Shown piece by piece: positions 42,177-44,100 of a stretch of 64,000 nt of DNA. Every line of letters begins with the position of its first letter. Within the stretch, counting starts at the first letter, position 1. Under the pieces are notes generated by a model, which worked only from the letters and a program-made list of their open reading frames with translations, was not told the DNA's origin and searched no databases. This DNA comes from Natrialba hulunbeirensis JCM 10989 (GTDB taxonomy: Archaea > Halobacteriota > Halobacteria > Halobacteriales > Natrialbaceae). The stretch covers positions 62,001 through 126,000 of the forward strand of contig NZ_AOIM01000037.1 in NCBI RefSeq assembly GCF_000337575.1. The letters are read 5' to 3'. A program made the position numbers and the translations under genes.

Positions 42177-42234
42177 GGCTCTGTTGAAACCTTTAGTCAC
42201 CGATAGGTTTCAGTAGCCGTGCTGAATACAGAGC
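42177..42234 (+). mobile_element. MITE-like element, copy 1
   Basis: A 58-base sequence whose outer ends are GGCTCTGTTGAAACC and GCTGAATACAGAGC, so the terminal CTCTGT and ACAGAG are inverted. Inside, GAAACCT (42186-42192) and AGGTTTC form a second inverted pair. No open frame. The ends resemble those of IS6-family elements as I remember them. A second copy lies inverted at 42779-42831. No clear target duplication was found. Confidence 0.6.
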
Positions 42235-42329
42235 GCGAATGTTCCACAAGCCGAGTGACGGTCTGCGAGAGTAGTGGCCGGTCAGTACAGGCGGTCTAAT
42301 TTGCGAGATGAGTGTCTTGGGGCATTGTG

Positions 42330-42662
42330 CTATCGGCCTATGAGTCCCAGTATCCGTCTGCGAACGTCCTCGGCTGAGTCATATGTTTGGTCATCAGTTG
42401 AAGAGAGTACGTCCTCCAGGGGTTTCTTGCCGCCCTGCGTTTCAAGTTCATAATCACCATAGGCCTCAACCAACTCATTTGTCGTGGCTGGATAGTCGTG
42501 CGATTTGAGCTCTTCATCAAGATCACCAAGCCGCTCGCTTTCGTCATCAAACAGCGGTTCCTTTTCATCGCCGCGGGCCCGGGCCTCCTCTAGTTCTCGG
42601 TCACGCTGGCGATTCTCTTCACGGTCCGCTTGCTCATCTCGGCCCTGTTTATCATCTGCCAT
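42330..42662 (-). CDS. DUF5789-family protein
   Basis: A 110-residue, strongly charged protein read from ATG 42662 (MADDKQGRDEQ). The first 45 residues are Arg/Glu-rich and helical, then come LGDLDEELKSHDYPATTNEL, VEAYGDYELE and the closing SAEDVRRRILGLIGR, which I recognise as DUF5789. Function is unknown. A TATA box (GTTATATTC, 42686-42694 on the minus strand) is 24-32 bases before the start. The gene is flanked on both sides by inverted MITE-like elements and is less GC-rich than its neighbours, so it may have moved as a unit. Confidence 0.83.
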   Translation of the reverse strand: MADDKQGRDEQADREENRQRDRELEEARARGDEKEPLFDDESERLGDLDEELKSHDYPATTNELVEAYGDYELETQGGKKPLEDVLSSTDDQTYDSAEDVRRRILGLIGR

Positions 42663-42778
42663 ATACGACAGTAGGAGATCCAGGCGAATATAACTCTCGG
42701 CGGTTGGTTCCACGCACACTGAGTGGCTGATTCAGTGGTAATTGAGTGAAATAAACGTGGTCATTGTGCTGACTACAT

Positions 42779-42831
42779 GCTCTGTATTCAGCAGTCCGTT
42801 TGTGTTAGAAGGCAGTCGCTTTAACAGAGCC
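42779..42831 (-). mobile_element. MITE-like element, copy 2 (inverted)
   Basis: A 53-base sequence whose reverse complement begins GGCTCTGTTAAAGCG and ends CTGCTGAATACAGAGC. It shares both ends with copy 1 at 42177 but not the middle. It faces the opposite way, so the two copies bracket the DUF5789 gene. Confidence 0.58.
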
Positions 42832-42870
42832 AGCAGCTTCAAACAAGCGCAGAATCCACGAAGGACCAGC

Positions 42871-44100
42871 TCAGAGTTCGAACTTCTCCGCAGCCGTCTC
42901 CATGTCCTTGTCGCCACGGCCCGAGAGGTTCACGAGAATCGTCTCGTGTTCGCCTTCCTCCGCGAGTTGAATCGCACGGGCGATGGCGTGACTGGACTCG
43001 AGTGCCGGGATGATGCCCTCGGTCTCGCTCAGTTCGCGGAAGGCTGCGAGCGCTTCCTCGTCCGTAATGCCGGTGTACTCACAGCGGCCGACGGCGTGGA
43101 ACATGGCGTGTTCGGGGCCGACGCCGGGGTAGTCGAGCCCGGCTGAAACCGAGTGGACCTCGACGTCGTCGTCGATTACGCGCGTTTTCATGCCGTGAAT
43201 GGTGTCGTCCTGTCCCTTCGCCAGCGGCGCGGCGTGGCGACTCGACTCTGCGCCCTCGCCGCCGCCCTCTGCGCCGTAGAACTCGACGGGGTCGTCCTCA
43301 GAACGCTTCGCGTTCTGATGGGCTGCGGAAGACGTCTCCGACGTCTTCCGAACGTCGCGGAAGGCGTGGAAGAGCCCGATGGCGTTCGAGCCGCCGCCGA
43401 CGCAGGCGACTGCGGCGTCCGGGAAGTCGCCGGTTCGTTCCAGGTTCTGGAACTGCTCGCGGGCCTCCTCGCCGATGACGGACTGGAAGTCCCGAACCAT
43501 TCGCGGGAACGGGTCCGGGCCGACGACGCTGCCGACGAGGTAGTGGGTGTCGTCGACGTTTGCGGCGAAGTCCTCGAGTGCAGCGTCGACGGCGTCGGCC
43601 AGTCCCTCACCGCCGCGGGTGACCTCGTTGACCTCGGCACCCATCAGCCGCATCCGGAAGACGTTCATCGCCTGCCGCTGGGCGTCCTTCTTGCCCATGT
43701 AGATTTCCGTCTCGAGGCCGAGCAGCGCGCCGACCATCGCGGTTGCAACGCCGTGCTGGCCCGCGCCAGTCTCGGCGATGAGACGGTCGCGACCGGCGCG
43801 TTTCGCGAGCAGGGCCTGCCCGAGACAGTTGTTGATCTTGTGTGCGCCGCCGTGGAGCAGGTCCTCGCGCTTGAGGTAGATCTCAGCACCGTAGCGTTCG
43901 CTCAGGTTCTTCGCGTGATACAGCGGCGTCGGCCGTCCGGCGAACGACTCGAGATGGTCGCGGAAGTCGGCCTGGAACTCGTCGGTCGATGCGACATCGT
44001 CGTAGGCGGCTGCAAGCTGGTCAAGCGGTTCCTGCAGCGGTTCGGGGACGTAGCGTCCGCCGTAGCCCTCGAACTCGCCCGTAGACTCTCGGTCGGTCAT
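42871..44100 (-). CDS. trpB: tryptophan synthase beta chain with a palindrome-coded insert
   Basis: A 409-residue PLP enzyme that condenses indole with serine to make tryptophan. K88 in GGAHKINN is the cofactor lysine; GAGQHGVAT and the phosphate loop GGGSNAIG (near 235-242) are intact. Residues 250-269 (VRKTSETSSAAHQNAKRSED) are an insert of 20 residues in the loop between FHAFRD and DDPVEFYGAE; typical TrpB sequences lack it. At DNA level it consists of two perfect hairpins. The frame is kept, so the enzyme is probably active. It is an orphan: no trpA, trpC or trpE is nearby. ATG 44100 is chosen; upstream frame is not protein-like. Confidence 0.93.
   Translation of the reverse strand: MTDRESTGEFEGYGGRYVPEPLQEPLDQLAAAYDDVASTDEFQADFRDHLESFAGRPTPLYHAKNLSERYGAEIYLKREDLLHGGAHKINNCLGQALLAKRAGRDRLIAETGAGQHGVATAMVGALLGLETEIYMGKKDAQRQAMNVFRMRLMGAEVNEVTRGGEGLADAVDAALEDFAANVDDTHYLVGSVVGPDPFPRMVRDFQSVIGEEAREQFQNLERTGDFPDAAVACVGGGSNAIGLFHAFRDVRKTSETSSAAHQNAKRSEDDPVEFYGAEGGGEGAESSRHAAPLAKGQDDTIHGMKTRVIDDDVEVHSVSAGLDYPGVGPEHAMFHAVGRCEYTGITDEEALAAFRELSETEGIIPALESSHAIARAIQLAEEGEHETILVNLSGRGDKDMETAAEKFEL
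43294..43353 (-). mobile_element. in-frame palindromic insertion in trpB
   Basis: Sixty bases, exactly 20 codons, inserted in a conserved loop of trpB. It holds two perfect hairpins: arm GGAAGACGTC with a 3-base loop (43327-43349), and arm CAGAACGC with a 3-base loop (43299-43317). GAC occurs just before the insert and as its last codon, which could be a short duplication made on insertion. Confidence 0.6.

Follow-up and report, generated by a model that had tools for sequence, protein, structure and literature searches.

An in-frame two-hairpin palindromic element in trpB of Natrialba hulunbeirensis and its family among the haloarchaea

The trpB gene of Natrialba hulunbeirensis JCM 10989 contains a 60-nt sequence composed of two hairpins, and the question raised by this locus is where such a sequence came from and how a conserved gene can carry it with its reading frame intact. 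An earlier note, made from the DNA alone, had suggested a mobile palindrome whose open frame lets it survive within an essential gene, a haloarchaeal counterpart of the palindromic elements of Rickettsia. The window analysed here is the whole stretch of 64,000 nucleotides that includes the gene.

The insert and its empty site in trpB

The features of the locus, in window coordinates and in gene order from left to right flank, are as follows.

42871..44100, minus strand: trpB (tryptophan synthase beta chain), 409 amino acids including the 20-residue insert, no internal stop; Pfam PALP
43294..43353, minus strand: the 60-nt mobile palindrome, reading GTTC...GAGGAC in gene direction; 29 relatives have the empty site
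43354..43357, minus strand: left target flank CGAC, from the flank profile of 155 copies
43326..43350, minus strand: hairpin 2 (left end on the gene strand), 11-bp stem, 3-nt loop, CGTTC in front; supported by covariation
43319..43325, minus strand: linker joining the hairpins, in gene direction CAGCCCA, near-invariant in the 20-copy alignment
43298..43318, minus strand: hairpin 1 (right end on the gene strand), stem of 9 bp, loop of 3 nt, GGACG behind
43290..43293, minus strand: right target flank GACC, its first position being G in 97-98% of copies

A DNA alignment of haloarchaeal trpB genes revealed a 60-nt gap precisely at 43294-43353 in 29 of 29 relatives, and TrpB proteins of the same genus, 96-97% identical, lack the 20 residues. 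The in-frame double palindrome adding 20 residues to trpB, as first noticed, is thereby confirmed, and the result that would have refuted it, close relatives sharing these residues, did not materialize. On the gene strand, the empty site of the relatives reads TTCCGC/GACGAYCC (slashes mark the points of insertion) and the filled site TTCCGCGAC/GTTC...GAGGAC/GACCCC, or in full TTCCGC GAC/GTTCGGAAGACGTCGGAGACGTCTTCCGCAGCCCATCAGAACGCGAAGCGTTCTGAGGAC/GACCCC. The borders are ambiguous by 3-4 nt in the alignment, with GAC(G) present at both sides. The added residues, including the preceding Asp, are read as DVRKTSETSSAAHQNAKRSED.

Both hairpins are perfect with 3-nt loops, as had been described, but their arms, previously given as 10 and 8 bp, measured 11 bp (hairpin 2, 43326-43336/43340-43350) and 9 bp (hairpin 1, 43298-43306/43310-43318), each 100% complementary. 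The minimum free energy of the insert DNA was -25.0, against -13.8 +/- 2.2 for shuffled sequences (z = -5.0), none of 200 shuffles being equally stable; the RNA fold was also structured (z = -4.4). The chance expectation in the window of the larger-hairpin pattern, even with 3 mismatches, was 0.

All catalytic TrpB motifs are retained despite the insert. Homologues in the PDB align through it and place it directly after the helix that follows GGGSNAxGxF, ahead of the next conserved stretch. That the peptide is translated and that the enzyme works remain inferences, with no expression, protein or enzyme data behind them. The insert appears to be tolerated with an open frame, as proposed; the description of its host as an essential gene requires qualification, since the genome holds a second trpB-like gene (C36:105619-106788, 53% identical), so that the insert-bearing copy need not be strictly essential, and strict essentiality is unproven.

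Separately, downstream of trpB, the stretch 42177-42832 has inverted ends (GGCTCTGTTGAAA... and ...TTTAACAGAGCC) around a 129-aa open frame (42330-42719), and resembles a MITE or the remnant of an IS.

Distribution, structure and target of the family

A BLAST search with a 64-nt query retrieved full-length copies of 80-95% identity from other haloarchaea and from named plasmids, and 20 copies were aligned. A covariance model of the family, R1, is matched by the trpB element with 84 bits (E 3.2e-20). Matches to R1 were found in 347 of the 392 genomes of the order in a bulk search, and in a second draw of order genomes in 72 of 81 at E <= 1e-6; none was obtained from about 312 genomes that belong to the phylum but not to the order. 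R1 E-values are only rough, and 13 candidates were scored per genome in the bulk searches, such that copy numbers are lower bounds; the copies studied in detail were mostly top-scoring, and fractions derived from them are therefore not unbiased.

The genome of N. hulunbeirensis itself gave 18 R1 matches at E<=1, eight with E of about 1e-7 or less, which, together with the copies throughout the order, refutes the outcome that no second copy exists. These further copies were detectable only by the structure model: a strict-E BLAST search with the insert found no second copy in this genome, and a strict hairpin-1 pattern recovered the trpB copy only. An exact-pattern scan of GTDB genomes returned Haloferax profundi alone, and no credible match to the element was found in phage records. 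Presence or absence of the element differs among sister species. A published description of this haloarchaeal family was not found, though few papers in subscription journals were covered and one elsewhere cannot be excluded; a literature search for the encoded peptides likewise gave no match.

Copies share the plan CGTYC-hairpin-GCAG-CCCA-hairpin-GGACG (CGTTC-hairpin2-GCAG-CCCA-hairpin1-GGACG in the trpB type), in which the two hairpins are inverted with their tags outward, so that both termini read inward as CGTYC-hairpin and form a terminal inverted repeat, CGTYC/GGACG, of only 5 bp. Amongst 155 distinct copies, 134 begin on the left with CGTTC or CGTCC, and 142 show CGTCC at the right when that end is read inward on the other strand. 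The stem of hairpin 1 has 9 bp and that of hairpin 2 about 8-11 bp, with loops mostly of 3 nt; the tail is TGG after hairpin 1 and GCA after hairpin 2. Copies fall into length classes of 54, 56, 57 and 60 nt, the length of the 54-, 57- and 60-nt forms being set by the hairpin 2 stem.

Linkers and ends are conserved between copies, and the stems vary by compensated Watson-Crick changes: in the 20-copy alignment, 10 of 17 pairs had changed on both sides and covariation was 0.35 vs 0.11, values reached in none of 500 shuffles. Over the 155 copies, hairpin 1 comprised 1384 Watson-Crick and 8 mismatched pairs, and only 3 of its 1395 pairs were G-T. RNA structures tolerate G-U pairs, and from the near absence of G-T pairs we infer that it is pairing of the DNA that counts. 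An RNA-level element was judged unlikely on the same ground and because no Rfam family fits; nothing in Rfam exceeded its gathering score at the element, the best being a sub-threshold match to Xoo5 (27 of 50 bits, E 0.086).

Insertion occurs at about CGRC/G, the base right of the insert being G in 97-98% of copies. The left flank varied among the 155 copies (GAC in 72, GGC in 37, CAC in 15, and others). It had been noticed that GAC both precedes and ends the trpB insert, which is correct; a target-site duplication was rejected as its explanation, as the left GRC varies and the right end of the element is nearly always GAC, and by the same token the element makes no duplication as long as 3 bp.

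Copies within genes and the frame rule

Most of the copies studied lie outside genes, and those within genes belong to the 54-, 57- and 60-nt classes. By manual count, at least 24 host sites carry in-frame copies of 54, 57 or 60 nt, and the sense-strand copies encode, in one and the same frame, a hydrophilic peptide of the DVRKTTESSSAAHQNAKRSED type of roughly 20 residues. The reading frames of the hosts were deduced from open frames and from the GC content of codon positions, without expression data. TrpB is a host in three genomes: that of N. hulunbeirensis, that of Haloferax profundi, where trpB (L167) has its own copy in the same loop, one codon off, and G028, where a different loop is occupied. 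In-frame copies also reside in NAD kinase, a DsbH-like protein, MinD/ParA, a DUF84 NTPase, DUF2797, an Rsm22-like methyltransferase, a PAS-histidine kinase, an alpha/beta hydrolase, fibrillarin, SufBD, GNAT, a copper-type ATPase, histidine-kinase ATPase domains and three TnpB groups. Two hosts had no Pfam hit, one resembling glucosyl-phosphoglycerate synthase (an identity that rests on our own reading) and a nuclease-like protein in G139/G143. One host protein carries two copies, and a DR2241 protein carries an enlarged one. Inserts also occur in proteins annotated as normal, which affects annotation; for instance, public coding sequences with the element include a fibrillarin of Natrinema thermotolerans (QCC61468.1) and, in Halomicrobium urmianum, a protein annotated merely as a cation-translocating P-type ATPase (WP_225336054.1), read here as copper-type.

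Several of these insertions have an empty counterpart. Judged by the lengths of matched stretches, same-genus sister orthologues lack the approximately 20 residues in NAD kinase, the DsbH-like protein, MinD, DUF84, the Rsm22-like protein and the PAS-kinase, and DNA alignments displayed a clean 60-nt empty site in three hosts (L117, L114 and L115). The DUF2797 insert is common to two species (G215 and G205). Recurrence in frame in many proteins, with empty sites in sister species, bears out the view of a mobile palindrome with an open frame, and the number of in-frame sites sharing one frame supports the interpretation of a haloarchaeal family of protein-inserting repeats comparable to those of Rickettsia.

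Copies within genes obey a rule of frame and length. In an automatic classification of the 155 copies, all 21 genic copies of 54 or 60 nt that lie on the strand of their host gene kept frame 1, and the frame was shifted in all seven genic copies of 56 nt. The window genes offer 544 CGRCG sites that are sense and in codon phase, 214 that are sense but in either of the other phases and 703 that are antisense, from which about 37% of insertions would be expected to be sense and in phase; the genic survivors are nearly all so. Of the two other sense frames of the 60-nt form, one is closed by a stop, the TGA in the GCGTTCTGA arm, and the second, like the antisense frames, encodes a basic or hydrophobic peptide. 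We infer purifying selection against all but the hydrophilic open frame. One TnpB group (L146, L230 and, in the genome of N. hulunbeirensis, L129) is an exception to the sense rule, its element lying antisense and in frame at the C-terminus.

Three hosts contain further sequence of note. In the trpB of G028 (L120:3001-3150) there are two palindromic elements, the second of which (GTCGTCAGAACGCG/CGCGTTCTGAC...) brings an in-frame TGA, and this gene looks interrupted, or read in two parts. The DR2241 protein of G145 (L056:1380-1540) has about 60 extra bases between the hairpins with the frame kept, a larger or nested form. In a histidine-kinase ATPase domain of G224, G239 and G275 (L140-L143), tandem peptides EHGSTSNRPQDD and EHGSTSPRSQAHEDAV stand beside the element, and their DNA contains another palindrome, GTGGAGC-ATG-GCTCCAC, which probably represents another haloarchaeal family of protein-coding palindromes.

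Relation to known elements and mobilisation

The palindromic elements of Rickettsia (RPEs) are mobile, lie in frame in conserved protein genes to which they add a short peptide, also occur outside genes, and have no known transposase (PMC2229807, PMC3767692, PMC3733652); they measure 100-150 bp, are found in Rickettsia (and Wolbachia), and RPE-4 and RPE-6 are CGTC-tagged (PMC3733652). The haloarchaeal element resembles the Rickettsia and Wolbachia elements as an in-frame palindrome in unrelated protein genes of which orthologues without the insert exist, but with 54-60 nt it does not meet the length criterion of 100-150 bp for RPEs sensu stricto, and it has two separate hairpins and is GC-rich. 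The CGTC-tagged REPs of bacteria (Di Nocera et al. 2013, PMC3733652) have 8-9 bp stems, 4-5 nt loops and a CCA tail, their intragenic dimers encode 20-30 residues, and they lack a linked or dedicated transposase; 'archaea' occurs in that paper only in the reference list. Head-to-head heterodimers of these REPs share with our element, whose hairpin 1 has 9 bp, the CGTC-type tags facing outward in an inverted pair, the intragenic frame and the absence of a dedicated transposase, so that tag and inverted pair fit, whereas loop size (3 nt here) and the CCA tail (absent here in tag-to-tail direction) do not. REPINs (PMC3116915) are likewise two inverted hairpin units moved in trans as a single mobile unit, but they are GTAG-tagged and tied to the RAYT transposase, whilst the haloarchaeal element has no linked gene of this kind. 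An archaeal precedent is provided by the protein-coding palindromic repeats of Methanocaldococcus jannaschii, open-frame repeats fused into genes (Suyama et al. 2005, as far as cited in PMC2229807).

Taken with these likenesses, the evidence supports a new haloarchaeal family of protein-coding mobile palindromes, of the kind of the RPEs and the CGTC-tagged REP dimers, with translation within host proteins and activity inferred. We hold with high confidence that the trpB insert is a copy of a haloarchaea-wide, non-autonomous mobile two-hairpin element, of which in-frame copies can be tolerated as a short peptide whose translation is inferred. Work on such palindromes has so far centred on Rickettsia and Wolbachia, where they counted as an oddity of intracellular genomes; the same habit now extends across a whole order of archaea that live freely, in which sister species have empty sites, and genetics in Haloferax volcanii could make testable both what moves CGTC-type palindromes and what cost or functional effect a peptide insert has.

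Other origins of the insert deserve consideration. An old functional loop of TrpB, or a chance indel without mobile origin, might be thought of for 20 residues situated in a loop, since loops can be expected to vary somewhat in length; their absence from same-genus TrpBs at 96-97% identity speaks against this, and the recurrence of the same DNA unit at two dozen unrelated sites already refutes it. An archaeal bulge-helix-bulge intron, spliced from the mRNA to leave a normal TrpB, would account for the precise insertion and the structured RNA (z = -4.4), but a spliced insert would not need its frame to be open or its length to be a multiple of three, and the genic copies obey both conditions. 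Moreover, no pairing of exon flanks into a bulge-helix-bulge motif is visible, the hairpins folding by themselves; the intron was rejected on the frame and length rule and retains very little plausibility.

Two explanations rooted in haloarchaeal insertion sequences are doubtful, each to a similar degree, without being dismissed. Many copies lie within or beside TnpB/TnpA elements, and those of 56 nt are intergenic, in IS6-like transposase genes (a family name assigned by eye from sequence) or in the palindrome CCCACGGCTAAAGCCGTGGG near tnpB. The element might accordingly be a terminal-only PATE, an IS605-type remnant whose left and right ends were fused by deletion of the core, its hairpins being the two termini of an IS that is dead or cross-mobilised. 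In Haloquadratum walsbyi, terminal-only PATEs are about 52 bp, bear hairpins, lack a target duplication and are seemingly mobile (PMC3119063); yet the surroundings of 30 TnpA loci yielded no full-length IS bearing both ends, and copies that touch TnpB elements interrupt the IS, in the CCCACGGCTAAAGCCGTGGG palindrome or the tnpB frame, and do not bound it. Alternatively, the element could belong to the small mobile repeats (SMR-A/SMR-B) of H. walsbyi, which are transposase-free and insert into near-terminal palindromes of IS605-type elements and PATEs. SMRs and PATEs are short, transposase-free, haloarchaeal and without target duplication (PMC3119063), and insertion of SMRs into IS605-type palindromes is matched by many copies here, which occupy TnpB-element palindromes and IS transposase genes without long duplication and end in a short terminal inverted repeat. 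However, SMRs measure about 80-110 bp, those of SMR-A about 110 bp, and have prominent inverted repeats, their families lack mutual sequence similarity, and PATEs derive from IS605 ends, compared with 54-60 nt and a 5-bp terminus for our element; the passages of PMC3119063 consulted mention no in-frame insertion of SMRs or PATEs into conserved protein genes, and mobilisation of the small mobile repeats is termed enigmatic there.

The mobile two-hairpin element that we favour is pictured as follows. Two inverted hairpins, CGTYC-tagged outward and resembling a head-to-head dimer of CGTC-tagged REP palindromes, insert at about CGRC/G without duplicating 3 bp or more. Where length is a multiple of three and orientation is sense and in codon phase, the insert would be translated as a tolerable hydrophilic peptide, and other insertions into needed genes would be purged; the trpB copy represents a recent landing in the loop between the helix and the next conserved segment. 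An HUH transposase (Y1, IS200/IS605-like) acting on single-stranded hairpin DNA would move the element in trans.

Insertion that is repeated, recent and precise, hairpins in the DNA at both ends, a fixed short target and no long duplication are all established for the family, and they are marks of single-strand Y1 transposition (IS200/IS605, RAYT-like). The family has these IS200/IS605-type features, namely subterminal hairpins at both ends, a short fixed 5' target and no target duplication, and because the precise insertion, end hairpins, short target and lack of long duplication fit Y1 transposition, an HUH enzyme in trans is thought the most likely mover, an untested guess that has an even chance of being wrong. 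A non-exhaustive census revealed no autonomous transposon bounded by the two ends of the element near 30 Y1-transposase (TnpA) loci, and copy number had no clear relation to Y1 transposase genes. The N. hulunbeirensis genome itself has three Y1 transposases (C12:127622, C41:155661 and C37:207340). Several copy-rich genomes (G215, G185, G220, G040, G054 and G152) have no PF01797 match, such that a Y1 enzyme is not required for the element to be present. It is rather improbable that the 54-, 57- and 60-nt copies form a lineage adapted to intragenic life, in which selection on the element itself keeps stem lengths in multiples of a codon and the hydrophilic frame open; if they did, a haloarchaeal mobile element would spread through proteins, repeatedly seeding new surface loops.

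Two observations concern IS elements that carry the palindrome. The antisense copies at the tnpB C-terminus (L129, on C17 of the N. hulunbeirensis genome, L146 and L230) belong to one IS605 group, and a related tnpB, L253, is without the element; the guide RNA of IS605-type elements is usually encoded near the C-terminus of tnpB, the region in which these copies sit. In G407, three copies of a tnpB element (L147-L149) share a 56-nt element at the same spot in the palindrome upstream of tnpB, from which it follows that the interrupted IS itself moved on.
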